Shown: positions 23,115 through 42,840, counted from the stretch's first letter. The stretch: 43,772 nucleotides of DNA from Coriobacteriia bacterium (GCA_030603745.1 JAUVXE010000015.1:1-43772); one strand, 5' to 3'. The notes: a model not told the origin generated them from the sequence alone. A program made the numbers and translations.

Positions 23115-24419
23115 CTACGGAGTCGCCACCCCGATGATCCGTCCTGACGGATCCAGGGTCACTCGAATCGAACGAATCTCTATCTCTGAGGCCGCTGGCT
23201 GCACCACATACGTCCACTCGTAGGAGACGTTTGTACCGTCACTCGTGACCTTTGGAGTGTCGGCGTTCGTGATGCGGGCATAGATGTCCGGTTCTGCCTC
23301 GCGTATCCGATCCTTCGCGAGCTGCACGTTGGCCTGCTGCGCCGAGGCTCCCGGGGACGTGCCCGTGAAGACCGACTCGCTCATCGCCCGCGCCCCCGAA
23401 CCGAGGAACCAGAGTGCGACTCCGAGGAACACCAGCATCATGAAGCCGGCGGTGGCGAGACCCTTCAGCGCAGCAAGGGGATCCTGAGGCGGACTCGGCC
23501 CACGTTGCCTGCGTCCACCGCTTCTCCTGCGCCTGGTCTTCTTCTCCTCACCGCCGAGTGCAATCGCAAGAGCGAGGATGGCAAGAACGACCCAGAGCGG
23601 AGACGTGCCCTCGAGCATGCGCTTGAGTCCCCATCCCACAAAGACGATGAGTGCGAGTACCGCGCCGGCCGCAACGAGCCTGCGGTTGGACACCCCGGTC
23701 GAGCCGCTGGGCTGCTTCGCGGGACTGGCTGTCGCCCCCCGCGCAGGCCCCGTTCGAGGAGGTGTTGCGGCTCGTGCTGCTGCTGGCGCCGTCGCAGCAG
23801 AGCCCTGACCACTCCTGTGATCAGCATGCACCTTGGTCAGAGAGTCATTCGCAGACTGATCGAGTTCGAAGATCGCCTGCGTCAGCGCTGCGCGCTCATC
23901 CTCGGTGAGCGGTGCCTGGATCACGAAATCATGGCGCATCCGGAGCCTCTCCCGGATCTCGCCGATATCCGCGACCCTTGAAGCGGTGATCGAGTCCAGC
24001 TCGAGCTGACTGGTATCGCATCCCGCCATGACCACAAGACCGCGGATCCTGTCGAGCGAGTGATCGAAACCCTTCTGCTTCAGCAGCTTGTGGAGCAGGT
24101 GGATGTGCTGGTCGTTCTGGTGCAGAGGGTTCTGAAACGCGTAGTTCCGGCGCCCCGGGTAGCACGCGGTCCAGTTCTTCTCGGCGTATGTCCCTTTGAT
24201 GAGTGCACCATTTCGGGCCTTGGTCTCGACAAGCAGCACCCCGAACTGATCGATCAGGACGTGATCGATCTGCGCGGTGACCGACCCCCGCTGCCCGACT
24301 GAGCCGATCAGCACGTCATCAAGCATCACGAAGCCGAACTCCGCCTGAAGGCCGTTCAGGGTCTCAGATACGCGGCGCTCGGCTTCATCGCCGATGCTCT
24401 TCGCCTTGTCGAACTCCAT
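23115..24419 (-). CDS. NERD-domain membrane protein
   Basis: A 434-residue protein. Residues 8-125 form a nuclease-related (NERD) domain with the PD-(D/E)xK-like core: GDEAERRV at 10-17, QIDHVLID with D52, VLLVETKA with E65 and K67, and FQNPLHQNDQHI. This fold suggests a cytosolic nuclease-like or nucleic-acid-binding activity. After an Ala/Pro/Ser linker (about 200-240) come two hydrophobic helices (LVAAGAVLALIVFVGWGL; PLWVVLAILALAIALGG), an Arg-rich loop, a third helix (LATAGFMMLVFLGVALWFLG), and a 90-residue C-terminal domain predicted outside the cell. The ATG at 24419 has GGGAGG just upstream, preferred over an earlier GTG. It follows an unknown gene by 136 nt. Anchoring a NERD domain to the membrane with an exported tail is unusual. 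Confidence 0.88.
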   Translation of the reverse strand: MEFDKAKSIGDEAERRVSETLNGLQAEFGFVMLDDVLIGSVGQRGSVTAQIDHVLIDQFGVLLVETKARNGALIKGTYAEKNWTACYPGRRNYAFQNPLHQNDQHIHLLHKLLKQKGFDHSLDRIRGLVVMAGCDTSQLELDSITASRVADIGEIRERLRMRHDFVIQAPLTEDERAALTQAIFELDQSANDSLTKVHADHRSGQGSAATAPAAARAATPPRTGPARGATASPAKQPSGSTGVSNRRLVAAGAVLALIVFVGWGLKRMLEGTSPLWVVLAILALAIALGGEEKKTRRRRSGGRRQRGPSPPQDPLAALKGLATAGFMMLVFLGVALWFLGSGARAMSESVFTGTSPGASAQQANVQLAKDRIREAEPDIYARITNADTPKVTSDGTNVSYEWTYVVQPAASEIEIRSIRVTLDPSGRIIGVATP

Positions 24420-24543: not shown

Positions 24544-24573
24544 AGCCCGCAGCCTTCACCCAGAATGCGGGTT
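24544..24573 (-). terminator. hairpin at the end of the 461-residue gene
   Basis: AGCCCGCA and TGCGGGTT pair (one G-T wobble) around 14 nt, overlapping the stop at 24556; on the minus strand it is followed by CTCTGTTATCT, which is moderately U-rich. It would end transcription before the NERD gene, which then needs its own promoter. Confidence 0.4.
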
Positions 24574-25941
24574 CTCGTCCTCAGCCCTCGAGTCCTGATC
24601 CTCACTCACGCCAGCGGCACCCGGCTTTCGCCGGAGCAGCGAGCCAGCCGCACCCGCCGCCACACCCTTGACCGCGGAACCGGCACCTTCCACGGCTGAA
24701 GCAACCGGTGACTTGCCAGGGACGCCGTCGCCATCAGCATCGACCGCACGAAACGCGCCAGCTGCCTGCTCGAAGCTCTGCGAACCGAAGCGGCGGGCAG
24801 CATCGACGCCCCCGGCGGTTGCAGTGAACACCCTATCCCGCACCTCTGCCGCTGCCTCGCCCCATCGTCTGGCCTCTGATGACTGATGGTCACACTCGAT
24901 GCTGAGTCGCCTTCGGAACTCAAGAAGATCGGTCGCGACCTGGTTGCTTGAGCGCACGACCGCAGGCGACCGGAGCGGGTTGAAGAGCACCTTCGAGTTC
25001 GCCTTTCCAACGGCCTCGCCCATCTCGGCCAGGAGACTCGCTGTGCTCAGAGCGATGAGTTCGCGCCGCTTCAGGAGCGAACTGCTGAGCCCGATGCGGT
25101 GCTGATCGAGCTCTTCCGGTGAGACTTCAAGCACCCGGTCGATCTCGAGCACCCAGATCGCGTCCTGTAGCTGGAGACACCGCGCGAGGACCGCGAGCCA
25201 CTCGCGGACCTTGGCCTCGGCTTCCTTTGTCACCTTGGCGATCTCCCCGACATCCGCTTTCGCATGCAGCTTCTCCGCGATGGCGTCGAGCTGCCGGAGT
25301 GCATACGCCTGGGTGCGCGCGACCGTCATCGCGGTCCCCTGGACCTTCGACCACGTGACCTCTGAGACTCGCCCAACCTGGTCACGAACGGTCAGGGCCT
25401 CATCGACGATCAGGCCCACTCCGCTCATGTCGGCCAACACCGCGTCCTTCTGGGCGCGAAGGATGTCGTCTACCTTCTCGTTGATCTCTTGCAGGTACTC
25501 GGCGATCTCGTCCATGTGCTGTGCGATGGCGGCCTGCGCCATGATCCCCGCGACACCTCCGAGGACCGCAGGGTTTCCCAGTACCGAGCCTGGGCCCTGG
25601 GCGAACTGCACGATCCCCTTGATCTTGCCGTCACCACCGACATCCTGAATCACGCCCAGACTCAACCCATTGTCCCTGCGAGTCATGAGGGTGAAGCGAT
25701 CGATCAGCGCAGCCGACTCCTCGGTGATCTGCACCCAGCGACCGGAGCCGCTGGCGATCGTCGCAGCCGTCTCCGTCGTGACAGCCAGCGCGCTCAGGAT
25801 CTTGCCAAGCCTCGGCAGTCCGAGGTCTCTGGACGGTAGCTGGTCCAGGCCTTGAGATATCAGGAAGCGTTCTACAGCCTTCGGGTCACCGATGACCGCA
25901 AGACCGTCGCCGTCGCTGATGAGCTGAACCTCGTTGTTCAT
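24556..25941 (-). CDS. unrecognised 461-residue protein with amphipathic helices
   Basis: I do not recognise a characterised family. The N-terminus MNNEVQLISDGDGLAVIGDP followed by VERFLISQGL gives a small alpha/beta start. Residues about 120-150 are Gly/Ala-rich and hydrophobic (PAVLGGVAGIMAQAAIAQHMDEIAEYL), long enough to insert in a membrane. Residues 150-400 are mostly helical with heptad-like spacing (EIAEYLQEINEKVDDILRAQ). The tail has a DADGDG-like segment (DADGDGVPG), another Gly/Ala hydrophobic patch and an acidic end. The ATG at 25941 is preceded by GGTGGGAA. It sits between the peptidase-like lipoprotein (86 nt upstream) and the NERD gene. I recall similar MNNE(L/V)QLISDGDGLAVIG proteins in actinobacteria, with no known role. 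A pore-forming or membrane-remodelling effector is possible but unproven. Confidence 0.8.
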   Translation of the reverse strand: MNNEVQLISDGDGLAVIGDPKAVERFLISQGLDQLPSRDLGLPRLGKILSALAVTTETAATIASGSGRWVQITEESAALIDRFTLMTRRDNGLSLGVIQDVGGDGKIKGIVQFAQGPGSVLGNPAVLGGVAGIMAQAAIAQHMDEIAEYLQEINEKVDDILRAQKDAVLADMSGVGLIVDEALTVRDQVGRVSEVTWSKVQGTAMTVARTQAYALRQLDAIAEKLHAKADVGEIAKVTKEAEAKVREWLAVLARCLQLQDAIWVLEIDRVLEVSPEELDQHRIGLSSSLLKRRELIALSTASLLAEMGEAVGKANSKVLFNPLRSPAVVRSSNQVATDLLEFRRRLSIECDHQSSEARRWGEAAAEVRDRVFTATAGGVDAARRFGSQSFEQAAGAFRAVDADGDGVPGKSPVASAVEGAGSAVKGVAAGAAGSLLRRKPGAAGVSEDQDSRAEDENPHSG

Positions 25942-26027: not shown

Positions 26028-28226
26028 TCACATCGACTCACGTTTACGTCGCGGCCACACGAGGATCGCGACGCCGGCTACCAGGAGAGCTGCGGCGGCG
26101 AGCAACAGTGCGGCTATTTCCGTGCCGCGCGTCGATCCGAAGCGCGGCGCGCCATCACCCCCCTGCCCGCCGCCCTCTTGCAGGACCACGATGTCGTCAA
26201 CCTCGCCGTCGGAGTCCCGATCGATCGCAAGAGTGACCCCTGACGCGGGCAGAGCGTCCCAATCTTCGACGATGATCGTGTGCGTCTCGCCATCTGCGAT
26301 CGTCTGTGCTGCAGCGACCAGGAGCGAGGTGTCATCGACCCCGAACACCGGCACATACGTCCGCTCGCCGGAGCTGACGCTCGAGACGACCATCCCTTCA
26401 TCCCCCTCGGAAGCTGCCACCGTGAACGTGTCTCCTGTGGCGAGCGCCGTGTCCTCCGTGCCCATGGTTCGCACCGTCTCGCCGACCGGCCTGTGGATGG
26501 TCAGGTCGACGTCCGCCCGCTCCGCACCAGCCGCGAACTCGAGCACGCCGCCATTGGCATCGGTGCCGAGGGTGTCGCTTCCCGCCTCTCCCGATACGTC
26601 CGCCCTGACGATTCCCGACTCGTCGGAGACCGCATACGTGTACTCGCCCTCCTCCCCGAGCGCGACCGTGCGAACGTATGACGCCTCCTCGAGATGGAGG
26701 AACAGCCGCGTGGTCGGTTCGGACCAGATGTCGGGGCAGAAGAGATCGATGCCCTCGATCTCGTCGTAGGCCTCCCCGTCAACGAAGCCGGAGCGCTCTC
26801 CGGACTCGTTCACGAACAGCGGCTCAGCCGTGATGGACACCGCCGTGAAGGGGGAAAGGAGCCGCTCGACCGCACTGGGGCGATCCGTGGGGATGATTCC
26901 GGCTCCTCCCGGCGTGCGGGCCATCACCTCGACCAGTCCCGAGGTCGACAGATACCCCATCCAGCCCTGTTCTGAGGACCACGTGAGGGCGGGCGCACCC
27001 TCCCGCTCCCCTTCCCGGCGCAGGTCGTACGACCACGACCAGCTTCCCGTGTCTATATAGACAGGCCGCGCCTGCCCGGGATGATTGTTGTCCCAGACCC
27101 ACACCACCGCCTGACCCTCCGCGAGCTCCGAGATGGCGAAGGGTGTCACCGCGTGGCCGCTCCCCCCGAAGGACTTCTCTCTGATGATGAGAAGGGGGAT
27201 ATCCCGGTCGCCACGCTCGAAGACTCGCTTCAGGTGCGCGTACGTGGCCTCGGTTCCTTTGGTGATCCCGCTGTTGACGCCGCCTATGAACTGCGACAGG
27301 TAGTAGCGCTGGATGAACTCGCGGGTCACCTTGGGCGTGGCATGACCGTACTCGACCGATCCGGAGGCCTGGTGCGTGTTGTTGACCGCCACGCCAAAGA
27401 CCGTGTCCGCCGATCCGGGGAAGTCGGCGACATCGTTCGAGCCTTCCCAGACGGTGTTTGCGGAGGCCGCGAAACCGAAGCACAGGCCACCACTGAAGAC
27501 ACCGCTGTTGGCAAGGTCGTGAAGCTGGAAGTCGAACCAGGCCAGGGGGCCACCCCCGCACACGAGCTTCCACACCTCCCAGTCGTCCCGACGGTGCGTG
27601 TCGACCCCGTTGCGAAAGTCGTAGCCGTCAACCCGGGGCCGGAAACCCGAGTCTGCGGTGTCTGCGGGAAGTCCCGCCTCAGAGCTGAGGTCCTCCACGG
27701 CGCGACCGCGCGGTACGTTGAGCGCTATGCGCGCGAGTCCGCTCGATCCGAGCCCGTCGATCTCCGTGCGCGCAGCGATGTACGTCGCGCCCCGGAACAG
27801 ACGGTCGCCTCCGAGCGCCAACTCCCACTCACCGGTCTCCTCGTCGACGATCGCGAGGCCCTCGGAGAATCGGTGCACGGCCTCCGCGGACGCCGTGCGA
27901 TACCCGTCGGGCATCACGTACACCCGTACACGGGCGACCGCACCCGGGTCGCCCGCCCTATCTGTGGCCCTGACCGACCAGCCCCTGACCACAAGCGTCT
28001 CCCCGTCGTGCGTGCCGCCCCCTACCGGCTCGACGATCAGCGGCATTCCCACCGTGTCGCCCGGAAGGGAGCCGATCGTGCGTAACCAGTTCTCATAGTC
28101 GGCCTTGGTGGTGTTGACCGACTCCTGGACCTGGCGGGTGTCGCCGCCGACACAAGCGAGCGAGAGCGACAGCAGTACGACAAGCGGCAGGATCGACCGC
28201 AGCACTCTGCTCGAACGGACGCTCAT
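26028..28226 (-). CDS. lipoprotein with papain-like cysteine peptidase signature and C-terminal membrane helix
   Basis: A 732-residue exported protein. The signal sequence SILPLVVLLSLSLAC ends at C25 and fits a relaxed lipobox. A beta-rich domain (about 60-175) precedes a region with SGGLCFGFAASA (C249), SGHAVTPFAI (H358) and VWVWDNNHPG (D379/N380/N381), the order and spacing of a papain-fold Cys-His-Asn/Asp triad. Further beta segments follow, and at the end a DRDSDGEVDD calcium-type loop, then a membrane helix (AALLLAAAALLVAGVAILVW) and an Arg/Lys tail. Activity on peptides or transpeptidation is inferred, not shown. The ATG at 28226 overlaps the upstream stop as ATGA and has AGAGGA upstream. 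It is the last member of the tightly packed zinc-ribbon gene run. Confidence 0.85.
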   Translation of the reverse strand: MSVRSSRVLRSILPLVVLLSLSLACVGGDTRQVQESVNTTKADYENWLRTIGSLPGDTVGMPLIVEPVGGGTHDGETLVVRGWSVRATDRAGDPGAVARVRVYVMPDGYRTASAEAVHRFSEGLAIVDEETGEWELALGGDRLFRGATYIAARTEIDGLGSSGLARIALNVPRGRAVEDLSSEAGLPADTADSGFRPRVDGYDFRNGVDTHRRDDWEVWKLVCGGGPLAWFDFQLHDLANSGVFSGGLCFGFAASANTVWEGSNDVADFPGSADTVFGVAVNNTHQASGSVEYGHATPKVTREFIQRYYLSQFIGGVNSGITKGTEATYAHLKRVFERGDRDIPLLIIREKSFGGSGHAVTPFAISELAEGQAVVWVWDNNHPGQARPVYIDTGSWSWSYDLRREGEREGAPALTWSSEQGWMGYLSTSGLVEVMARTPGGAGIIPTDRPSAVERLLSPFTAVSITAEPLFVNESGERSGFVDGEAYDEIEGIDLFCPDIWSEPTTRLFLHLEEASYVRTVALGEEGEYTYAVSDESGIVRADVSGEAGSDTLGTDANGGVLEFAAGAERADVDLTIHRPVGETVRTMGTEDTALATGDTFTVAASEGDEGMVVSSVSSGERTYVPVFGVDDTSLLVAAAQTIADGETHTIIVEDWDALPASGVTLAIDRDSDGEVDDIVVLQEGGGQGGDGAPRFGSTRGTEIAALLLAAAALLVAGVAILVWPRRKRESM

Positions 28227-29680
28227 CTCGATCCTCTCGCACGCCACGGATAGGAGCACAGCCCGAAGCTGAGCACGCCGAGGGCTGCTCCGAGCCCCCA
28301 GTCGAGGCCCGCGCGCCACACGTCGACGATCTCCGGGGCGAGCGTCTCGACCCGAGAACTCGATCGCACGACGGACTCGGCGAAGAGCCGATCGCTCTCC
28401 CCGAGTCCGACCAGCCACTCCCCGGCTCCTCCGCGCGCCCCGAGCAGAGCGCCGGGCAAGACTACCCGCGACGTGAGCGACACGTCCCGGGTGCGCGACT
28501 GCATGTCTTCGAACACCTGACCGTCTTCGTCGTACACACCCTGCCTCACGTGGAGGCCATCGGTTTCGAGGAGTCCTGCGTAGACGAAGTGGGTGCCGTC
28601 GCCCATCTCGATCGACTGAAGGTAGGACCAGCTCTCGCCCGGACGATGCGGCACCGAGTTGAACTCCGCGCAGGACTCGAACAGCCGCGTGATCCGCAGG
28701 GTTCCGTCCCCCCGAGCCACTGTCACGCCCTGTCCCTCAAGCTCGGCGATCCAGGAATCGACCGTCGCCCGGGAGTTCGGCAGGCCGAGGATCTCCTGCA
28801 TCTGCTCCTCTCCGATCCCGACCTCGGTGACGACACTGCCCGAACCGTCGTGACCCACCGTCGTCACGATGCCGACGTCGCACCCCACCAGTACGGTGCC
28901 GGTCACGAGCATCCCGACGAGAGCGGCGGCCAGAACGGCCTTCCTGCGGCGAGCGGAGTCGATGCCGCGGCGGACACGCGCGAGGAGAGCCGCGCCGAGG
29001 AACCCCGCTGCGACGAAGAGCGTGCGCCACGCGAGGCCGAGCAGATCGTCCGCGCGCTCCTGTGTCTCGGGCGAGAGCGCGAGGATCACCATCTCGGTGC
29101 CGGATGGCGAGACCAAACCGACTGCGCTGATCATCTGGCCCACGGCCAGGTCATCGCGGTGTGCGGGGTAGAGCCCGCTGATCGCCTCGTCGCCATGGAC
29201 GAGACTGAGTGCAAGGTCGCGGTCCTCCTCGCGGAGTCCCGACAGACGGCCCTCGACCCGCACGAGCCGGTCCTGGAACCGAGCGGGATGAGCGGCCACC
29301 TGCGCGACGGTACTCGAGACGACCCTCTCGTCGATCGGAGGGGGCGACCCCAGGCGCTCCCTCTGCCACTCCGAGACAACCGGCGCGACCTCGTCCAGAC
29401 TGCCAGCGTCGGGCGTAAGAAGCGACCTGGCTGTGGGTGATCCCAGCCCGACAGCGACCATCACCGCAAGCGCCAGCACGGCTGCGACCGCCTGCCGAAT
29501 GACCCGCCCACGAATTCCCGCTCGCGGTCGAGGGTCCGTCGAACCGACGGTCTTCGACGGCGCGGCGAGCGCTTCAGGTGGTCCGTCGTTCGTCTCCGGA
29601 ACTTCGATCGGCTCTCCGCAAGAACCGCAGAACCGGTTCATCTCAGGATTCGACGCTTCACAGTGCGGGCAGGATCTCAC
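28223..29680 (-). CDS. zinc-ribbon polytopic membrane protein (ZnR-D)
   Basis: A 485-residue protein. The N-terminus is a zinc ribbon with C4, C7, C18, C21 (C-x2-C-x10-C-x2-C), ending FCGSCGEPI. Hydrophobic helices follow at about 62-80, 217-233, 245-265 and near 455-475. Between helices 1 and 2 lies an OB-like domain (RFQDRLVRVEGRLSGL, MISAVGLVSPSGTEMVIL). After helix 3, VLVGCDVGIVTTVGHDGSGS begins an ectodomain that resembles the 'GC-x-V... DGSG' start of LppM/DUF3153-like lipoproteins. The start is a GTG at 29680 preceded by a GGGGGG run. It overlaps the following lipoprotein gene by 4 nt. The ribbon should be cytosolic and the C-terminal domain extracytoplasmic. No enzyme motif is seen. 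Confidence 0.85.
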   Translation of the reverse strand: MRSCPHCEASNPEMNRFCGSCGEPIEVPETNDGPPEALAAPSKTVGSTDPRPRAGIRGRVIRQAVAAVLALAVMVAVGLGSPTARSLLTPDAGSLDEVAPVVSEWQRERLGSPPPIDERVVSSTVAQVAAHPARFQDRLVRVEGRLSGLREEDRDLALSLVHGDEAISGLYPAHRDDLAVGQMISAVGLVSPSGTEMVILALSPETQERADDLLGLAWRTLFVAAGFLGAALLARVRRGIDSARRRKAVLAAALVGMLVTGTVLVGCDVGIVTTVGHDGSGSVVTEVGIGEEQMQEILGLPNSRATVDSWIAELEGQGVTVARGDGTLRITRLFESCAEFNSVPHRPGESWSYLQSIEMGDGTHFVYAGLLETDGLHVRQGVYDEDGQVFEDMQSRTRDVSLTSRVVLPGALLGARGGAGEWLVGLGESDRLFAESVVRSSSRVETLAPEIVDVWRAGLDWGLGAALGVLSFGLCSYPWRARGSR

Positions 29681-29717
29681 GCGCCCCCCTACGGGTCTGT
29701 ACGGTCGTCCGGACAGG

Positions 29718-31028
29718 TCACCGGCGGGCCCCGCACTCCGTACAGAACGAGGCGGTCTCCTTCAGCGGAGCTCCGCACGCTGTGCACGACTCCCCCACCA
29801 CGTCCGAGACCCCCGTTCGCCCACGCTGCCGGAAGCGACGGACCGACAACGTCACGCCGAGGAGGGCCAACACGAGCACTCCGCCGCCCGACCCCAGCGC
29901 GAGAGGCCAGTTGGGCACGCGCGATGCTGTCCGAACCTCGTCAGGCAAGAGAAGATCGCCGCCACTGAAGCGCCACGATGTCGTGGAGCCACCCTCAAGG
30001 ACGCCAGGCATATGGACAACGAGGCGCACGTCGGCCGCAGCGATGGCACCCTCATAGCGTGCGATGTCGGCTGCGGTGGGCGAGCCGAGCCCTCCACAGG
30101 GATCACACGTCGCCGCCCCCTGGCCGTCGCACTCTTCGCAGGGGACGGATCCGACGCTCGAGCACTCGTCACATTCGACCTCTCCCTCGCCGTCACACGC
30201 AGAACACTCGAGGTTTCCAGTGCCCCCGCACGTCCGGCAGTCGAGACGTCCAGCGCCGTCGCAAGAGCGGCACTCCGTGCGGCCGGCCCCGTCGCAAGAC
30301 CAGCAGGCATAGCCCCAGCTGTCGGTACCGCTGCCATCACAGCTGAAACACTCCCGCCAACCACGTGATTCGCACGAGCCACACGCCTGGCTTCCCGCAC
30401 CTTCACACTCCTGACAGGCAGAGGAGCCTCGTGCTTCGCACTCATCACACGGATAGACCCCCTCGCCGGAGCAGCTCGAGCAGACGAGCGACCCCGAGGT
30501 GTCACAACTGAGGCAGTCGTGGCGGCCGGCGCCCAGGCATTCGAGACAGTGCGGCGGGCGGAAGTCGATCTCCGGGAGTCGGTACGTCACCTCGATCGAC
30601 TTGAACAGCAGATACTCCTGCACCACGACATCGATCTTGGATCGATCGAGGATCACCGGCACGAAGCCGATCTCATCGGACACCTCCGCCAGCACCGCCG
30701 CAAGCAGTTCGGCCTCGGCATCCGGAAGCTTTGATGGATCCTCGAAGACGCGGGAGTACCCAGCTGTCGAGCTCGACTCCTGTGACCAGCCAGGCACGTC
30801 GCCTTCGAACTGTGTTCCCCGGACGGACACACGCTCCTCGACAGAACCGTCGGGCGCAAGGTCGAGCTCGATGTCGACGCCGACCCCGGTACCAGAACAG
30901 CCAGCGAGCAGTGCGACCGCAAAGGCCACGAAAGCGACCGCACAGCAGCGAAACCAGATGTGCAGGGTGCCCGCCCGGCCTCGAACCATCGTCAGGTGAC
31001 TCGGAGCCCCCCGGTCATCCGGGCCCAT
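29718..31028 (-). CDS. lipoprotein-like protein with 14 tandem CxxC units, a membrane helix and C-terminal zinc ribbon
   Basis: A 436-residue protein. A hydrophobic signal ends in the lipobox LLAGC (C44), followed by a domain whose start (VDIELDLAPDGSVEERVSV) again resembles LppM/DUF3153. From C161 to C311 there are 14 CxxC motifs at about 11-residue spacing, each followed by x-G-x-G-like residues, like the DnaJ cysteine-rich domain but more than three times as long. None is followed by His, so they are not haem sites. A helix at about 376-395 (LALGSGGGVLVLALLGVTL) leads to a cytosolic ribbon C415, C418, C429, C432. The ATG at 31028 lies 3 nt after the previous stop, with GGGGGG 9 nt upstream; M14 is an alternative. 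Metal storage, thiol redox or protein folding outside the cell are possible roles. Confidence 0.88.
   Translation of the reverse strand: MGPDDRGAPSHLTMVRGRAGTLHIWFRCCAVAFVAFAVALLAGCSGTGVGVDIELDLAPDGSVEERVSVRGTQFEGDVPGWSQESSSTAGYSRVFEDPSKLPDAEAELLAAVLAEVSDEIGFVPVILDRSKIDVVVQEYLLFKSIEVTYRLPEIDFRPPHCLECLGAGRHDCLSCDTSGSLVCSSCSGEGVYPCDECEARGSSACQECEGAGSQACGSCESRGWRECFSCDGSGTDSWGYACWSCDGAGRTECRSCDGAGRLDCRTCGGTGNLECSACDGEGEVECDECSSVGSVPCEECDGQGAATCDPCGGLGSPTAADIARYEGAIAAADVRLVVHMPGVLEGGSTTSWRFSGGDLLLPDEVRTASRVPNWPLALGSGGGVLVLALLGVTLSVRRFRQRGRTGVSDVVGESCTACGAPLKETASFCTECGARR
30096..30548 (-). repeat. tandem CxxCxGxG coding repeat
   Basis: Fourteen units of about 33 bp, each encoding CxxC plus a Gly-rich turn. 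The DNA units have diverged in sequence while cysteine codons and spacing are kept, which points to selection at protein level rather than recent slippage. One unit (between the seventh and eighth CxxC) is expanded by GTDSWGYA-type residues. Confidence 0.85.
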
Positions 31029-31031
31029 CGA

Positions 31032-31754
31032 TCAGTACCCCCCGTTGAAATCACTGCCCAGACCACTCGGGATGTACAGATCGTCGGCCGCCCTGTAGAG
31101 GCTCTCATACGCCCTGTCCGAGCCCCTCGATACTTGATCGAAGTATCTACCGATGCGGTCGTCGAGGCGAGAGCCCGTCATCCCTGGTTCCACATCGGCG
31201 ACAAGCTTGACAGCAGCTGGAGCCGCACCATCAAGGATGTATGTCGCGAACGCCTTCAGTCGTCGATCCGAGGCCTGGTGCTCGGCAGGCGCTCGCAGGG
31301 AGTGCAGCTTCTTCGCTGCACGTGTCGCGGTGTCCACACCAGCCTCGATGTCCGCCCGGTACACGCCGTACTCGTCCACACTCATCTTCTGATCAGATCC
31401 GTAGCTGTAGAGGCCACTGACGCCTTCGCTGATCAGGCTGAGTCCGTCCGCGATCTCTGCAAGATGGTCCTCGGCCGCCGACTCGTATGCCGAGGCGCTC
31501 ATCGGCCTGAAGAACGCGAACCACACGATGAGGATGAGCGCGAGCCCCGCCGTGGAGACGACGAGCACCGTACGCTGGCGACCGCCGGTGGCTATCGCCT
31601 TGGAAGTCTTCTTGACCGCGGCGGAGACATCGGCCACCGCCTGCTGCGCTACCGGCTGAACCGCACCCTCGGTCGCCGCGAACGCATGACCGCACGACTC
31701 GCAGAACTTCACCTCGTCAGGATTACCGTGCCCGCACTCCGTACAGTACTTCAT
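31032..31754 (-). CDS. zinc-ribbon single-pass membrane protein (ZnR-C)
   Basis: A 240-residue protein. The N-terminal ribbon has C4, C7, C18, C21 (MKYCTECGHGN ... KFCESCGHAF). A linker rich in Ala, Val and Lys leads to a membrane helix (about 72-92, VLVVSTAGLALILIVWFAFF), then an all-helical ectodomain beginning RPMSASAYESAAEDHLAEIADG. This ectodomain is clearly paralogous to that of the protein at 32464-33528: both share P-(M/L)-SAS-x-YE-x-A-x-ED after the helix and a later LR-x-P-x-E segment. The ATG at 31754 has AAAGGT 6 nt upstream and is preferred over M at 31769. The stop is 3 nt before the next start. No catalytic motif is seen. Confidence 0.87.
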   Translation of the reverse strand: MKYCTECGHGNPDEVKFCESCGHAFAATEGAVQPVAQQAVADVSAAVKKTSKAIATGGRQRTVLVVSTAGLALILIVWFAFFRPMSASAYESAAEDHLAEIADGLSLISEGVSGLYSYGSDQKMSVDEYGVYRADIEAGVDTATRAAKKLHSLRAPAEHQASDRRLKAFATYILDGAAPAAVKLVADVEPGMTGSRLDDRIGRYFDQVSRGSDRAYESLYRAADDLYIPSGLGSDFNGGY

Positions 31755-31776
31755 GCCATGACCTTTCATCGAAGCT

Positions 31777-32418
31777 TCAGGAAACCAGAGCGGAGCCGCA
31801 CGAGCCGCAGAACCGCTCACCAGGCTCCCCATGATGGCCACACGAGGTGCATGCGACTCCCCGGACCGGCTCCCCGGACGTCGCGCCGTCCGACACCGTC
31901 GCCGGTGCGGCATCGGTTTCACCTTGCGCGCTTCCGGCATCCTGATCAGTGTCGGGCTCGTGGAGTTCGACACCCCGGCCCACGTCCGTACCGCAACGCC
32001 CACAGAACGAGACATCGAGGCCGATCACGCCGCCGCATGCCGGACACGGTCGGGTCTCGACCCGTTCGACAGCCCTACCGCACCCGATGCAGAACTTCGC
32101 GTCACTCGCGCTGAGCGCGCCACACGAAGAGCACAGATGACCCTGTGACTGCTGTCTCAACGCTTCGACCTGGCCCTCTAGCCTGCCGAGGGCGACTTCC
32201 ATCTCGCGTATCTGCTCGATAGCGGAACCCAACTCGGGATGAGAGAGACGATTCTCTCTATGAGTGCGGTACACGGCTCTTCCGAGGCCCATGATGGCCT
32301 CATCGCGTTGGCGGCCCACAAGCTCGATCTGGGACTTCAGACGGGACAGCTCAAGCGCCCGCTCCGTCTGACTCAGCCCTTTGACGACACCCTGCTGCAG
32401 TCTGTCGAACAGCCCCAC
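31777..32418 (-). CDS. soluble coiled-coil protein with three zinc ribbons (ZnR-B)
   Basis: A 213-residue protein with no membrane segment. Residues 1-92 are helical coiled coil (LFDRLQQGVVKGLSQTE ... MEVALGRLEGQVEALRQQ). Three ribbons follow, each C-x2-C-x10-C-x2-C: C96/99/110/113, C125/128/139/142 and C190/193/204/207, the last two separated by an acidic linker. The start is the GTG at 32418, with GGAGG 4 nt before it; a TTG 18 nt earlier is possible. Being the only soluble member of the zinc-ribbon set, it is a good candidate for a cytosolic bridge that binds the ribbons of the four membrane proteins or nucleic acid. That role is inference. Confidence 0.85.
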   Translation of the reverse strand: MGLFDRLQQGVVKGLSQTERALELSRLKSQIELVGRQRDEAIMGLGRAVYRTHRENRLSHPELGSAIEQIREMEVALGRLEGQVEALRQQSQGHLCSSCGALSASDAKFCIGCGRAVERVETRPCPACGGVIGLDVSFCGRCGTDVGRGVELHEPDTDQDAGSAQGETDAAPATVSDGATSGEPVRGVACTSCGHHGEPGERFCGSCGSALVS

Positions 32419-32463
32419 ACTTCCTCCATTCCGCAAGACCCCGCACGACCCGTCCGGGCAGGC

Positions 32464-33528
32464 CTACTCGAGCCAGTCGAGATCGCCATACTGACCCGTC
32501 AAGGAGTCGACCTCGAAGACGTACCACTCGTCCGACCCGGTATCGAAGTCGACCAGTCTTTGGCGCTCGATGACCGCGCCCGTGGGCAGGGTCATCGTCA
32601 CCGTCACCTGGACCTCGTCCGAGTCGGTGCCAGCGCGACCCGCGTAGAAGGCGATGACCTGGTACGTCCCGCGGCTCAGGTCCTCGCCGTCGTGATCCCT
32701 GAACACGATGGTCTCGCTCTGCTGCCCGGCTCCTCCGGTCGCATCGCGGTCCTTGAGGTGACCGTAAGACTGCCCGCCGACAGCGTCCTTGACGATCAGA
32801 TCGACATCAACCGGCTGTTGCCAAGAGACGGTCACCGACACGGGCAGGAGAGCGAGGCCGGACATGGGATCATCGAGCGAGGTGAGATAGAGCTCCCCGA
32901 GCACCGAATCCAGGTACCCCCGGGCCGACTCACCCCGCTGCGACGAGCGTTCGGACGCACGCACAAGCCTGCGGCTGAGTTCCTCGGTATCGGTGACGGA
33001 TCCCGCTTCACGCATGAATGAGGCGTAGGGATCTAGGACGTCTCCCACCATGAAGCTCGTGTACCGCTCGAGATCGCGCTGGACGCGTGTGTATTCGTCA
33101 GGAGTTCTCAGGCTGTCGAGGTTCGCGCACGCTTCGCGTGCCCGCTTCTCGCCTGCGGCGAAATCGCTCTGATACCGCGAGATGTCTTGCGCGGAAAGTC
33201 CTGCCTGCGCATCCCCCACGAGACCACGCACCGCCTCGCCCATGAGGTCTGTGCCCTCGCTCAACTGCATCAGACCGTCCTCGACGGCGATCTCATATTC
33301 GGACGCCGAGAGCGGCTTGACAAAGAGCGTCCAGGCCCCGAAGGCGACGCCCATCGCTATGACAAGAAGGACAACGACGCCGATATACATGCCGCTGGAG
33401 CGGCGTTGGCGTTGAGGAGCCGGCTGAGAGGTCACCTCCTGCACATCCGGTTTCGGTAGTTCCGAGCCACAGGCACCACAGAAACGCTGATTCCCGTCCC
33501 GAGGCGCGCCACAGGATGTACAGTTCAA
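32464..33528 (-). CDS. zinc-ribbon membrane protein with beta-sandwich ectodomain (ZnR-A)
   Basis: A 354-residue protein and first gene of the zinc-ribbon operon. Ribbon C3, C6, C17, C20; membrane helix about 47-69 (MYIGVVVLLVIAMGVAFGAWTLF); helical ectodomain starting KPLSASEYEIAVEDGL, paralogous to ZnR-C; then, only in this member, a C-terminal beta-rich domain (about 225-350) with VSVTVSWQQPVDVDLIV, GTYQVIAFYAG and DEVQVTVTM, which looks like a PPC/Ig-type binding domain. The start appears to be a TTG at 33528 with GGGGG 4 nt upstream; no better start gives the intact ribbon. It is preceded by a good promoter with a palindrome over the -35. Confidence 0.86.
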   Translation of the reverse strand: MNCTSCGAPRDGNQRFCGACGSELPKPDVQEVTSQPAPQRQRRSSGMYIGVVVLLVIAMGVAFGAWTLFVKPLSASEYEIAVEDGLMQLSEGTDLMGEAVRGLVGDAQAGLSAQDISRYQSDFAAGEKRAREACANLDSLRTPDEYTRVQRDLERYTSFMVGDVLDPYASFMREAGSVTDTEELSRRLVRASERSSQRGESARGYLDSVLGELYLTSLDDPMSGLALLPVSVTVSWQQPVDVDLIVKDAVGGQSYGHLKDRDATGGAGQQSETIVFRDHDGEDLSRGTYQVIAFYAGRAGTDSDEVQVTVTMTLPTGAVIERQRLVDFDTGSDEWYVFEVDSLTGQYGDLDWLE

Positions 33529-36050: not shown

Positions 36051-36971
36051 TCAGGTGTAGAGATACGCGCCGTGGATGGAATCGTATACGAGTGGCACGC
36101 CGAGGAGCGAGAAGACGATCACCGGCAGCGCGATCACGGCGACCCACGCGGCCCTCGTGCCGCTCCAGCCGAGCGTCAGCCGCAGGTGGAGATAGAGCGC
36201 GTAGATGCCCCACGCGATGAGCGACCACGTCTCGATCGGGTCCCAGCCCCAGTAGCGTCCCCACGCCTGGTTCGCCCAGATCGCGCCTGAGGCGAGCATG
36301 ACGCCCTGGAAGACGAACCCGGCGCCGATGAACTTGAAGGTGAGCTCGTCGATGACCTCCTGGCCCGGCAGCCGCGCGAGCACGCCCGCGAGCCGGCCGC
36401 CGGCGACGGCCGCAGCCGCACCCACGTCGCCGGGCGCAGCCGCGTCGCCTGCGCGGCCCGCACCCGCGCCCGCATCCCCCGCGCGGCCCGCACCCCGCTC
36501 GCGCAGCAGGAACGCCGCCGCGAGCATGAACGCCGCCACGTACCCGCCGTAGGCGAGGTTCGCGAAGAGCACGTGGATGATGAGCCACACGCTCGCGAGC
36601 GCGCCCGAGATCGCCTCGGACTCGCGCGAGACGAGCATCGCGCCGCCCATGATCAGGAACGCGACGGGCAGCGCGACGATCCCCACCACGCGCAGTCCCC
36701 GGTGGCGCCACGCCAGCCAGAGCAGCAGCGCGACGGTGATCCACGCGAGCAGCGACGCGACCTCGTAGAATCCCAGGTAGGGGCCGTGGCCCGTGAGCAC
36801 CCACCGTACCGCGATGCCGGTCGTGTGCGCCGCGAAGCCCGCTCCCGCGAGCGTGAGCGCCGTGCGCTCGAGCACTCCTCGGCCAAAGACGACCCCGCCG
36901 ATGAACCCCGCCGAGGAGAGCGCGTACGCTCCCACCGCCGCCCACATCGCGACCAGCTCAGCCGTGATCAC
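36051..36971 (-). CDS. ccsA: cytochrome c assembly protein CcsA (system II)
   Basis: A 306-residue haem-handling membrane protein with about eight helices. The tryptophan-rich WWD region is present as NQAWGRYWGWDPIETWSL, with the flanking histidines of CcsA (TGHGPYLGFYE near residue 60; YDSIHGAYLY at the end). A low-complexity Gly/Ala/Arg cytosolic loop (about 155-205) is longer than usual. With ResB it forms the system II synthetase that exports haem and attaches it to CxxCH motifs. The start is the GTG at 36971, overlapping the resB stop as GTGA, with GGAGG 7 nt upstream; longer frames that run through resB are rejected. Confidence 0.94.
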   Translation of the reverse strand: MITAELVAMWAAVGAYALSSAGFIGGVVFGRGVLERTALTLAGAGFAAHTTGIAVRWVLTGHGPYLGFYEVASLLAWITVALLLWLAWRHRGLRVVGIVALPVAFLIMGGAMLVSRESEAISGALASVWLIIHVLFANLAYGGYVAAFMLAAAFLLRERGAGRAGDAGAGAGRAGDAAAPGDVGAAAAVAGGRLAGVLARLPGQEVIDELTFKFIGAGFVFQGVMLASGAIWANQAWGRYWGWDPIETWSLIAWGIYALYLHLRLTLGWSGTRAAWVAVIALPVIVFSLLGVPLVYDSIHGAYLYT

Positions 36972-38320
36972 CGTTCGTCCTCCCGCCGTGAGACCGACCG
37001 CTCGACCGCCGCTCGCGCGCGCCCGGGAAAGGCCGGGTCCACGCGTCGGCACCTCGTGACGAGCACGAGCCGTGCCGGGACGCCCGCTGAGGCGTCGGCG
37101 GTCTCGTGACGCACGAACGCCGCCCTCGGCGGGGCGAGGAGCGCGACCGCCGCGCCCACGCACGCGACCGTCAGGAAGGCGTAGATGAACGGGATCGTCC
37201 AGTCGTCGACCACGAAGAGCCACACCTGGTACCCGAGCTCCTCGACCACGAGCCAGCCCGATCCGCCCGGCAGCGCCACGCGCTCCCCGACACGCGCTTC
37301 GCGCGGCCGCTCGGTCGCCGGGTCGCCCGAGCCCGGGAACGACACCAGCACCCGCGGGTCCTCGGGCACGCGCCGGAAGTAGCGGCCGCCCTCCTCGTCG
37401 AGCGGGACCGCGACCACGACCGCGTACTCCTCGGCGGGGCGACCCTCGGCGGACGCCTCGACCACGAGCGTGCCGTCGGGGCGCAGGTCGTCGAAGTGCA
37501 GCGCCGCGGGCGCCGAGCCCCGGGCCTCGCCCTCGGGGCCGAGCACGGTGAGCACTGCGCCGATCCCGTACTCGAGCTGGTGGACCGAGAGCGACCCGTA
37601 GCGCAGCGGACGGTTGGGGTAGACCCGCTGCGCGCGGACCTCCTCGCCGTCCACGAGCAGCCGCACCTGCGGCGAAGGCCCCCGCTCGACGTCGCGGTGG
37701 ACGTGGTTGATGTCCAGGTCGTCCACGGCGATCACCCGGCCGGCCGCGTGCGACGCGAGCGGCCCGGCGGTGTAGGGGTCGTAGAGGGCGGGCGTGTCGC
37801 GTGCGACCCCGCCCTCGGGCACGCCGATGACGCCCTCCCACTTCATGAGCTGGCCGAGGCCGGCGAAGATGAAGAGCCCGGCGAGCGCGTAGTGGAAGAC
37901 CGGGCTGCCGAGGGCGCCCCAGGCGTTGCGGCGGGCCCACACGCCGTCGTCGCGGCGCGCCTGCCGCAGGCCGAGGCCGCCGAGCGCCGCCTCTGCCCGC
38001 GCGAGCGCCTCCTCGGCGGACACGCCCTCCGCGAGCTCGATCCCCGCTCCGGACGCCGAGGCGAGCCGGTCGACGGCGGGCGAGGCCGGGTCGCGCCACC
38101 CGCGCAGCAACGCGAGCGCGGCGCGGGCGCGCTCCTGGGCGCAGACGGCCGTCGATGCCGTGAAGACCGCGGCCGCGGCGAGAAAGACCGGGTTCCCGAA
38201 CGAGAGCGCCTTTGGGAGGAACGTCGCGGCGACCGCGTACGCGCCGATGCCGAGGAACAGCCCCACGGCCAGCCTCCGGGATCGCAGAAGGCGCGCGGGT
38301 CGCGGCCGCCGGACCGTCAT
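36968..38320 (-). CDS. resB: cytochrome c biogenesis protein ResB/Ccs1
   Basis: A 450-residue ResB-like protein. Helices at about 18-36 and 42-60, a third after the polar region (SPVFHYALAGLFIFAGLGQLM, near 140-160), a large extracytoplasmic domain (DINHVHRDVERGPSPQVRLLVDG, VYPNRPLRYGSLSVHQLEYG), and a last helix WTIPFIYAFLTVACVGAAVALLA preceded by YQVWLFVVDD. SVHQLEYG holds the expected haem-site His region. The ATG at 38320 is 10 nt after the lipoprotein gene stop. It is split from ccsA as a separate gene, as in Gram-positives. It is directly downstream of the multihaem cytochrome it presumably serves. Confidence 0.92.
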   Translation of the reverse strand: MTVRRPRPARLLRSRRLAVGLFLGIGAYAVAATFLPKALSFGNPVFLAAAAVFTASTAVCAQERARAALALLRGWRDPASPAVDRLASASGAGIELAEGVSAEEALARAEAALGGLGLRQARRDDGVWARRNAWGALGSPVFHYALAGLFIFAGLGQLMKWEGVIGVPEGGVARDTPALYDPYTAGPLASHAAGRVIAVDDLDINHVHRDVERGPSPQVRLLVDGEEVRAQRVYPNRPLRYGSLSVHQLEYGIGAVLTVLGPEGEARGSAPAALHFDDLRPDGTLVVEASAEGRPAEEYAVVVAVPLDEEGGRYFRRVPEDPRVLVSFPGSGDPATERPREARVGERVALPGGSGWLVVEELGYQVWLFVVDDWTIPFIYAFLTVACVGAAVALLAPPRAAFVRHETADASAGVPARLVLVTRCRRVDPAFPGRARAAVERSVSRREDER

Positions 38321-38893: not shown

Positions 38894-41800
38894 CTACGGC
38901 CAGTACGGGCCGGACGAGCTGTGCGCCGCACACCCGTTCTCGGCACAGTCGGCCTGCCCGAGCACGGAAGTCGACGTCCGGACTCGGATGGCGGTCACGC
39001 CGGGCCGCTCGGTTGCGGAGAACGCGTAAGGCGGGCCGTCCTCGGGCACGCCGCCGATCGTCCCGCCGGAGACCCGGCGCATCAGGCGCGGACGCTTCCA
39101 CGCGTGCGGGATGCGCACGTGGCAGCTCACGCAGGAGTAGCCGGGCAGGTTGTACTTCGAGTTCGCGGTCGTGTTGCCCGCTCCCGTGTGGTTGTTGTTG
39201 CTGCCGCTGTGGAAGCCCGAGTTGAAGTTGCCGTGACACTTGGCGCACAGTCCCACCGGCGCGGGACCGAGGCCACCGGTCGCGTTGAGGTCGTACGGGC
39301 CGGTCCCCTTGAACCAGTCGCCGGGAGCCGATGCGTACCCGGGGCCGGAGTCGATGCCGTACGGCACGCTCGCGCCGTGGGGGCCGTTCGCCGGCCCGAC
39401 CACGTGACAGTCGGAGCACAGCACGCGCGAGCCCTTGCCCCAGCTACCCTTGAAGAGGCTGTTGTACGGGAGCGCCGGGTTCGTGATCCCGTTGAACGTG
39501 CCGACCCAGGTCTCCTTGGGCCAGTTGGTTCCCATCGAGTTGTGCCCGCCGCCGCCGGGCCAGTCCTGGAACTCCGTGGTGGTGCCGAGCGGTGCCGGGC
39601 CCGTGTAGTTGCCAAAGGCCGCGGTGTTCAGCACCGCCCCGGAGGAGTGCGGGGCCGGCAGGCCGCGCTGCGGGTGGCCTACCGTGGTGATGCCGTTGTG
39701 GCACGCCTCGCAGCGCCGGTCACGCGAGGCGAGCGCCGCCTTGACCGCCGGCAGGTGCGCGGTGTCGCCCACGGCGCCGAGGTGCTCGGCCTGGTCGCGG
39801 TGGCACCGTCCGCAGTTCTCCCCCGTGCCGGAGAAGGTCCGGCCGAGGATCGAGGCGCTCCACTCGCTGTCGAAGTCCGCATCGAGGTGCTCGAAGAGCA
39901 GGTTCGCGGCATGGCAGCCAGCGAAACAGCCCACGTTCTTGCCGTCCGTATAGGTGGTCCCGCGCACCGTGCCGGTCACGTTCGCGACGTGCAGGTCGGT
40001 CAGGTCCGGCACCGAGCCGCCGTGCCCGGCGATCCCGTGCGCGTCCACGTGGCAGGTCGCGCAGTCGCGGACGTGGCCCCCCTCGGGCGGCACCGGCGTC
40101 CACGCCGAGCGCGCGCCCGGACGCAGCGAGATGTCGCCGTCGGCGGCGGTCCACGGCTTGCGGGCCGTGTCGCGCAGCCTGCCGCCGGGAAGCCCCGCCG
40201 CCGTGCCGAAGGTCGCGTTCTCGTGGCAGAGCTCGCACGCGGTGTACTGCACCGGCTTGGGCGGCTGGAAGCTCCGCTCGATCGTGAGACGGTTGTTGAG
40301 CGCGGTCCGCGTGCCGCCGCGCGCCAGCGTCAGGTAGATGTTCTGCGTCCCGGTCGGGCGCGGGAACATCGAGGCGAGGTCGACCACCACCGTGTCGGTC
40401 ACGTACGAGGTGCTCGTGGTGGTCCGGTCGACGAGCACGGTCCCGCCGCTGATCGTCTGGCTCGGGCTCGTGCCCACGACCGTCCCGCCGAGGACGACCC
40501 GCATGCGCGCGGCGTCGTTGGAGTTGCTCGTCCGCAGCGTGGTGGTGATGCGCAATGTCGCGACGTCGGTCACGTCGATGGTCAGCACGCCGCCCTGCTG
40601 GGCGGTCCCCCGGCGGACCAGGTAGTCGGTCGAGCTGTTGTTGCTCACCTCGTTGGCCTGGATGTCGACCCCGCTCGATGAGTACTGCAGCGCCGGCCAC
40701 GGCACCGCCTCGTTCACGAGCGCCACGTACGGCCGGTGCATCGACACGATGTCGGCGGTGTGGCAGAACTCCGTGCACGACTCCTCCACCGTCGCCGTGT
40801 GCGCGGTCGCGAAGCCGGTGGTCGTCTCGACGTGCTCCTCGCCCTCGAGCACCGTGTGACAGCTCGCGCACTCGGGCGTGAGCCCACTCGGCAGCGCCGC
40901 CAGGTCGACCGGCGTGGGGTGGCACTGCGCGCACGACGCGTGGATCTGCTCGATCCAGATCCCGCCCTCGTCGTTGTCGCGCGTGTCCTTGTGGCACGAC
41001 CCGCACTCGCCGAGGCTCGCCGCGCTCGTGGCGGTGTGCGACTCGCGCGACGCCTCCCCGCCGAGGCCAGGGTTGTGTACGTTGTTCGCCCCCGCCGAGG
41101 AGTAGTCGTCGCCGTGGCACCCGTAGCAGTCCTGCGTGTCCCCCGCCGCGTGTCCGCTGATCGGCGGAAGGCGCAGCACCGTGCCGGCCGGGTAGGAGCC
41201 GTCGCGCCGCAGGCCCTCGACCGAGTCGGCGCCCACCGGCACGTAGACGCCGGCGACGCTGTCCCACACCCTCGGCGTGGCGTCGGAGCTCGAGTGACAG
41301 GTGAAGCAGAACGCGCGCACCCCGGCCGGGGTCGCGGTGGAGAGCCCCTGGCCGCGCTCGTCGGAGATGAGCGAGGCGTTACCGCGGCTCGAGCCGTGCG
41401 GATTGTGGCAGTTGTAGCAGGGCATCGGCGCGCCGGCCGGCAGCGTGCCACCCGCCGTCTTGATGCGATGGCCGGCGCCGGGCGCGTCCGCGGTCACGAA
41501 CCGCTCGATGTCGGCCGCACCGTCGGGCGCCGAGAACGGGAACGCGTCGGTGCCCCTGCTGCCGTGGCACCCGAAGCAGAGCGCCGCGAACTCGCCGGTG
41601 GCCTGGTCGGCGGCGAGGGTGGCCGCAGTGGGCATCGTGTAGCGCGCCGAGAGCGCGTCGTGCTCACTCGCGCTCCGGTGCGCCTCGTGACAGTAGAGGC
41701 AGTCGCCCTCGGCCCGCCTCGGCATGGCGGCCGAGACCGGGATCGCCGCATGCGCGTTGCTCGCGGTGTCCGCGTACACGCTCGCGCCGGGGAACCGGCC

Positions 41801-42682: not shown

Positions 42683-42840
42683 CGTCGCCCGCGCGCCGGT
42701 GAATCGCCCGGCGAACCCTCTCTCGCAGTCCACACCGCCCCCGCCCGAACGAGCCACCGACCGTCGCGCACGCGCCACCCTCGCGCGCACGCGTCGCGCA
42801 CGCCACATCCATAGGTACATCGGCGAACGAGCGCGAAGCC

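Follow-up and report, generated by a model that had tools for sequence, protein, structure and literature searches.

The window analysed here is one whole contig of 43,772 bases (G000:C22) from the 2.14-Mb genome of a Coriobacteriia bacterium. Its minus strand carries six consecutive genes, g1 to g6, which encode four zinc-ribbon membrane proteins, a soluble coiled-coil protein with zinc ribbons and a lipoprotein with a predicted peptidase domain (Table 1). Intergenic gaps from g1 to g6 are 45, 22, 3, 37 and -4 nucleotides (nt), the last value being an overlap of g5 and g6; the short gaps and this overlap make it likely that g1-g6 form one operon. In all six genes, differences from the related locus L057 are about twice as frequent at third codon positions as at the first two, indicating that g1-g6 are real genes under purifying selection.

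Seven ribbons with the spacing C-x2-C-x10-C-x2-C are distributed over five of the six genes: one at the N-terminus of each of g1, g3 and g5, one at the C-terminus of g4 and three in g2. The initial annotation had reported these five adjacent co-directional genes, a 4-nt overlap with the following lipoprotein gene and a predicted cytosolic position for all ribbons. The gene coordinates confirm the arrangement and the overlap, and every ribbon is predicted to be cytosolic by the positive-inside rule applied to a hydropathy-based topology. Across the genome, the ribbon family PF13240 has eight matches, six of which (in five genes) lie inside a 3.9-kb stretch of the locus. The two further matches are both weak, and five of the seven ribbon-matched genes belong to this operon (chance bound for the clustering, ~1e-9). 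The clustering is strong evidence; the identical spacing is by itself weak evidence, because x2-x10-x2 is usual for the ribbon family, and it was rejected as a sign of a common docking code. Pfam matches in g1-g5 are confined to ribbons and cysteine-rich repeats, and g6 has no meaningful match. No match above cut-off was obtained for the six proteins with NCBIfam, and no informative match with the PADLOC (defence) and PHROGs (phage) libraries.

Table 1. Positions of the six genes and of their features in the window (TM, transmembrane segment).
Feature	Positions	Strand	Content	Match or model
g1	32464-33528	minus	N-terminal ribbon, TM, helical ectodomain, C-terminal beta-sandwich (PPC-like)	
g1 ribbon	33466-33522	minus	N-terminal	
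g2	31777-32418	minus	Soluble; coiled coil and three zinc ribbons; proposed cytosolic hub	
g3	31032-31754	minus	N-terminal ribbon, TM, helical ectodomain	PF13240 6.8e-7
g3 ribbon	31689-31745	minus	N-terminal	
g4	29718-31028	minus	Lipobox LAGC (C44), LppM-like domain split by CxxCxGxG array, TM (residues 376-394), C-terminal ribbon	
g4 CxxC array	30069-30548	minus	Cysteine-rich repeats, predicted outside the membrane	DnaJ/BSD2-like
g4 ribbon	29730-29786	minus	C-terminal, predicted cytosolic	
g5	28223-29680	minus	N-terminal ribbon, TM, OB-fold, TM, Arg-rich loop, internal lipobox, LppM-like domain, C-terminal TM	
g5 ribbon	29615-29671	minus	N-terminal	
g5 OB-fold	29060-29332	minus	Residues 117-207	Model pLDDT ~80
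g5 internal lipobox	28880-28891	minus	LVGC (C267), end of TM3, after Arg-rich loop	
g6	26028-28226	minus	Lipobox (C25), N-terminal immunoglobulin-like domain, papain-like domain, C-terminal TM, basic tail	
g6 papain-like peptidase domain	26980-27659	minus		
g6 C249	27480-27482	minus	Predicted catalytic residue	
g6 H358	27153-27155	minus	Predicted catalytic residue	
g6 D379	27090-27092	minus	Predicted catalytic residue	
g6 N381	27084-27086	minus	Predicted catalytic residue	

To establish the distribution of the genes, 149 genomes of the class were searched with g6, g5 and g4, and all 69 genomes of the order with a g5 profile. Both g5 and g6 are present in exactly the same seven of the 149 class genomes, which belong to three families of a single order (7/69 of the order). 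These are the window's genome and two of the same family (G061 and G097), three of one genus in a second family (G013, G031 and G115) and one of a third family (G067); the relatives bearing the system are uncultured Coriobacteriia/Actinobacteria metagenome-assembled genomes. Contig ends cut g5 in G067 and g6 in G097 and G115. Two kinds of match were excluded from the orthologue counts, namely weak g4 hits in other genomes that involve CxxC motifs (mostly low-specificity repeats) and ribbon-only matches to the N-terminus of g5.

Genes at the relatives' loci were called with a codon-usage script. Where contigs are long enough, the g2-type gene, paralogues of the ribbon-TM proteins and the LppM/CxxC lipoprotein are found in the same cluster. 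The order g1-g6 is identical in L057 (G061), with proteins 58-73% identical to those of the window. In L058-L060 (G013, G031 and G115) the order is g4, g2, three to five g3-type ribbon-TM paralogues, a further ribbon-TM protein, an Amidase_3 gene, g5 and g6, with many gene overlaps of -1, -4 or -8 nt. Synteny is thus kept down to about 30% protein identity, but gene order is rearranged and paralogue number varies. A scatter of homologues without synteny, looked for across the class, is not what was found, and the earlier proposal of an envelope system is supported to the extent that these envelope proteins belong to one conserved gene system.

Every g6 protein has a lipobox, a 'GGxTxxVQxxVxxTxxxYE' motif and an N-terminal beta domain, together with a C-terminal TM and WPRKR-like residues wherever the protein end is present in the contig. 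The catalytic centre is of two kinds. A papain-like centre is found in three genomes of the window's family (the window, L057 and L062), and an HExxH zincin centre in three genomes of the two other families (L058, L059 and L061), reading HEIAHGLG, or HELAHGLG in L061, with a PDLY segment. The M6 peptidase model TIGR03296 matches L059 (E=2.9e-10) and L058 (8e-4), both below its curated cut-off, and does not match L061; no usable hit came from a PDB sequence search with an M6-like relative. Papain-like and zincin versions are homologous in their N-terminal part (E=1.7e-25). The g6 slot therefore looks like a cassette, in which anchors and N-terminal domain are constant and the catalytic class has apparently changed between lineages. 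This retention of the anchors with a change of catalytic class is the strongest evidence for surface proteolysis as the output of the system. Furthermore, an Amidase_3 (PF01520) gene lies in or beside the operon in L058-L061, scoring 44-55 bits against a cut-off of 27 (E=7.8e-12, 2.1e-11, 2.4e-11 and 1.5e-14 in the four relatives).

In the papain-like version, the predicted catalytic residues follow the order Cys-His-Asn/Asp of papain-like cysteine peptidases. C249, H358, D379 and N381 are invariant in an alignment of eight proteins, while N380, between D379 and N381, is P or S in two of the eight. The Cys/His/Asn triad assigned initially is accordingly retained with N381 as the conserved asparagine, alongside D379, and not with N380. 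Five of the aligned proteins (L109-L113) are standalone relatives from other, diverse Actinomycetota, and represent an uncatalogued papain-like family with the signature 'DSGFRPxxDGFxF...GGHCxGFA...GGHAxTPYA...YDNNxPG' and no Pfam family match. Their domain is homologous to that of g6 and has the same C/H/D/N residues; they differ in being secreted or lipoprotein-like, with no ribbon genes alongside in the stretches read.

The candidate hub of the system is g2. It matches the double-ribbon family DZR (PF12773) at E=4.1e-13 and 49.7 bits, over the cut-off of 27.3, no TM is predicted in it, and it is conserved in L057-L060, L101 and L104. Its family is wide, and relatives with the full coil are found across Actinomycetota. 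Nine genomes from a family outside the class (L128, L131, L132, L135, L136, L137, L140, L141 and L143) carry consecutive genes for a coil-ribbon protein, a lipoprotein and a ribbon-TM protein, a trio that may possibly represent a minimal version of the same principle. In another family, within the class, a coil-ribbon gene is followed by two genes for ribbon-bearing membrane proteins. This recurrence of the coil-ribbon gene beside ribbon-TM genes across lineages gives indirect support to g2 as a hub serving ribbon-tethered envelope proteins. Two loci of the order carry g2 and g3 but not g5 and g6, namely L101 (g2, g3 and the g3 ectodomain as a lipoprotein) and L104, a contig of G067 (g3, g3, g2). 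In these two loci and in L058, L059 and L060, together from three genera, the g2/g3 module stands directly behind V/A-type ATPase subunit D (PF01813). A V/A-ATPase-linked role as a general rule was rejected, the window and L057 being without that neighbourhood.

The ribbon-TM proteins g1 and g3 are paralogues (28% identity, E=1.7e-17) sharing a helical ectodomain. The TTG start codon of g1 is kept in L057, and the PPC match for its beta-sandwich comes from the L057 orthologue (E=0.0017, below cut-off). In relatives g3 is amplified in tandem. An in-frame g3-type remnant of 51 amino acids (aa), in which the ribbon start is fused straight to the C-terminal helix, was observed at L058:9022-9174; the intact paralogue is at 10068-10733 in L059.

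Profile comparisons suggest that g4 and g5 each hold a domain like that of LppM (PF21946, Mycobacterium tuberculosis Rv2171). Using hhalign against distant LppM members, the C-terminal half of g5 reached a probability of 96% (E=4.9e-9) and g4 without its CxxC array 74.5% (E=2.7e-5). Control comparisons of unrelated domains with LppM profiles stayed below 1%, and one control, the g3 ectodomain against g5, gave 17%. In the Pfam search itself PF21946 gave no score for g4 or g5, which are below Pfam detection. Like LppM, both proteins have a lipobox, a beta domain ending in a 'PG...W' segment and a C-terminal TM. They differ from it in the CxxC array that splits the domain of g4, in the ribbon at the g4 C-terminus, and in the LppM-like part of g5, which comes after an internal lipobox of a polytopic protein. 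A standalone relative, L100, consists of a lipobox, an LppM-like domain (PF21946 E=3.6e-4, below cut-off), a TM and a C-terminal ribbon, which is the plan of g4 without the CxxC array. With 10 CxxCxGxG motifs, that array matches the Cys-rich domains of DnaJ and BSD2 in the PDB (E ~0.001-0.003).

In g5, the GC of the internal lipobox is invariant in all seven aligned proteins (31-60% identical to the window's), and the C-terminal TM reaches the threshold in the orthologues L057, L060 and L061. If this lipobox is processed, g5 would yield a ribbon-TM-OB anchor and a separate lipoprotein. The OB-fold model resembles CcmE in VIA (1sr3, Z 10.3, root-mean-square deviation (rmsd) 7.8; 8ce8_E, Z 9.4, rmsd 2.4) and the OB domain of AsnRS (Z 10.4, rmsd 2.3). 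A tRNA synthetase identity suggested by Foldseek of whole g5 was rejected, since the OB domain alone explains the matches (TM-scores ~0.15), and a PDB sequence search with g5 gave nothing usable. Of the outer parts listed in the initial annotation (LppM-like, CxxC-repeat, helical, beta-sandwich and peptidase-like), the first two are not separate proteins, both being in g4. The list was also incomplete, as g5 adds a second LppM-like domain and an OB-fold, and g6 has a C-terminal TM besides its lipobox.

Taken together, we tentatively propose, with the balance falling just short of it, that g1-g6 encode one membrane-spanning envelope-maintenance assembly, with docking, activity and substrate as we infer them here. 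In the sequences, ribbons predicted to be cytosolic occur on the membrane proteins g1, g3, g4 and g5, whose architectures are of three unrelated kinds, with a soluble coil-ribbon protein co-encoded. We hypothesize that the ribbons would bind each other and the g2 hub on the cytosolic side of the membrane. Docking would gather the helical ectodomains of g1 and g3 as sensors, the LppM-like lipoproteins g4 and g5 as putative lipid- or glycolipid-binding parts, and the double-anchored peptidase g6. As the output, g6 would cut a surface protein, or a substrate linked to the wall, where membrane and wall meet, and in relatives the Amidase_3 protein would cleave peptidoglycan as well. One class of peptidase may be able to replace another because the assembly would need placement, not chemistry. 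Precedents for such an assembly are PspA-YdjGHI of Bacillus subtilis (PMC8581546, PMC11237479), its closest working analogue, and a patescibacterial operon with exchangeable peptidases (PMC12419801), both described below. More specifically, the system may be an undescribed ribbon-scaffolded surface protease machine, in which ribbons of diverse membrane proteins sit on a coil-ribbon hub and the catalytic head, papain-like or M6-like zincin, is plugged in; this we regard as plausible rather than probable. The variable number and order of the other genes and the narrow range are a better fit to a modular assembly than to a machine of fixed stoichiometry.

The main rival, somewhat unlikely in our judgement, is that these are independent envelope proteins, co-expressed under one condition and working separately, whose ribbons are generic terminal caps that are easily duplicated or recombined (as in g1/g3). 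The varying number of g3-type paralogues between genomes, with one copy decaying in L058, is consistent with this explanation, as are the ribbon-TM proteins with other ectodomains scattered across Coriobacteriia and the g2-type proteins that occur without ribbon neighbours. It sits poorly with the concentration of the genome's ribbon-matched genes in this operon, with the strict co-occurrence of g5 and g6, and with the finding that, across three unrelated architectures, the ribbon is at whichever end is predicted to be cytosolic, N-terminal in g1, g3 and g5 and C-terminal in g4. A thiol- or metal-handling system appears very improbable. In such a system, zinc or redox state would be sensed or buffered by the g4 CxxC array and the ribbons, with the CcmE-like OB domain as a cofactor carrier. 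The long, predicted extracytoplasmic array and the resemblance of the g5 OB-fold to CcmE point in this direction, as do the ResB/CcsA-type cytochrome assembly genes and 19-heme cytochrome at least 2.5 kb upstream in this genome. However, the 16 CxxC motifs of g4 are reduced to 8 in L058 and L060, where the system is intact, a reading of the sequence after the g5 OB domain gives no CcmE-like HxxxY heme motif, and no cytochrome assembly genes were seen beside the operon in other loci, for which gene starts only were available.

A Psp-like membrane-stress response is distinctly improbable. In this reading g2 would be a cytosolic effector that polymerizes on the membrane and is received there by the ribbon-TM proteins, while the peptidase would tune the signal by cutting helical ectodomains. 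In the PspA-YdjGHI system of B. subtilis, ribbons are on both soluble and membrane members of the operon (PMC11237479), and the membrane localization of PspA and of a soluble SPFH protein depends on YdjG and YdjH (PMC8581546). The parallel lies in one operon that joins ribbon-bearing membrane proteins (here g1, g3, g4 and g5; there YdjG, with two ribbons and a TM) to a ribbon-bearing soluble partner (here g2; there the SPFH/band-7 protein with a C-terminal ribbon) (PMC11237479, PMC8581546). On the other hand, g2 has only ~90 residues ahead of its ribbons, and neither g2 nor any other of the six proteins matches the PspA/IM30 family in Pfam at E<=1 or has an SPFH or TPM domain. Instead of these, the operon has LppM-like lipoproteins and a surface peptidase; YdjG differs further by its NTF2-like YpeB-related domain.

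Several points weigh against the proposed assembly itself. The binding of ribbons to g2 or to other ribbons is a step that we infer, and g6, which has no ribbon, is tied to the assembly by operon position and co-occurrence. The peptidase activity and papain-like fold of g6 are predictions from sequence; the structure model built from three orthologues is unusable (pLDDT 34), and neither g6 nor the papain-like profile has a PDB sequence match or a Pfam match. Most genomes of the order lack the system, as do six of the nine genomes in its own family, which marks it as accessory. Finally, g2-type genes are common and often located elsewhere, many without a ribbon neighbour in the stretches read, so that g2 may have other partners.

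Two further known systems resemble parts of the operon. TcaA-type ribbon-TM proteins of Gram-positives (NF053815) likewise have an N-terminal ribbon, one TM and an extracytoplasmic domain, but the match covers the first 44 residues only (11 bits against a cut-off of 550) and leaves the ectodomain unmatched. In a patescibacterial VanZ-2 operon either of two unrelated peptidases is carried on the same membrane anchor (PMC12419801), which parallels the swap of peptidase class in g6; its pair is papain-like/Gly-Gly rather than papain-like/M6-like, and no VanZ or ABC transporter was seen here. As first suggested from the sequence, no described system of this composition was found, nor any paper joining LppM and zinc ribbons, in a search of the open-access literature, which is not proof of absence.

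Downstream of g6 on the minus strand are genes for a NERD-domain membrane protein (PF08378 6.5e-20) and a 461-aa protein without family match (23115-24419 and 24556-25941). At L061:2000-2719, convergent to g6, is a gene for a membrane protein with an NADase-translocation F5/8 type C domain (PF25302 6.6e-25), with a ribbon in frame ahead from ~L061:1667. Elsewhere in the window, 38894-42733 and 36051-38266 hold a multiheme cytochrome with 19 CXXCH motifs (MtrC/MtrF-like, cytochrome c7 domains) next to ResB/CcsA-type assembly genes, a locus with a possible role in extracellular electron transfer.

Although zinc-ribbon membrane proteins are widespread in Gram-positive bacteria, most of them have no explanation so far. 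In this operon, candidate partners of such proteins stand next to the enzyme that is probably their output, and nature has already swapped that enzyme between lineages. Each part is of a known domain kind, and the exchangeable peptidase head is the surprising element. The known carriers are few and uncultured, which restricts what can be done at once, but laboratory hosts can be used to express the orthologues. The role of cytosolic ribbons on envelope proteins becomes directly testable by asking whether they dock on the coil-ribbon hub, and the catalytic swap predicts that both versions of the peptidase would make the same cut.

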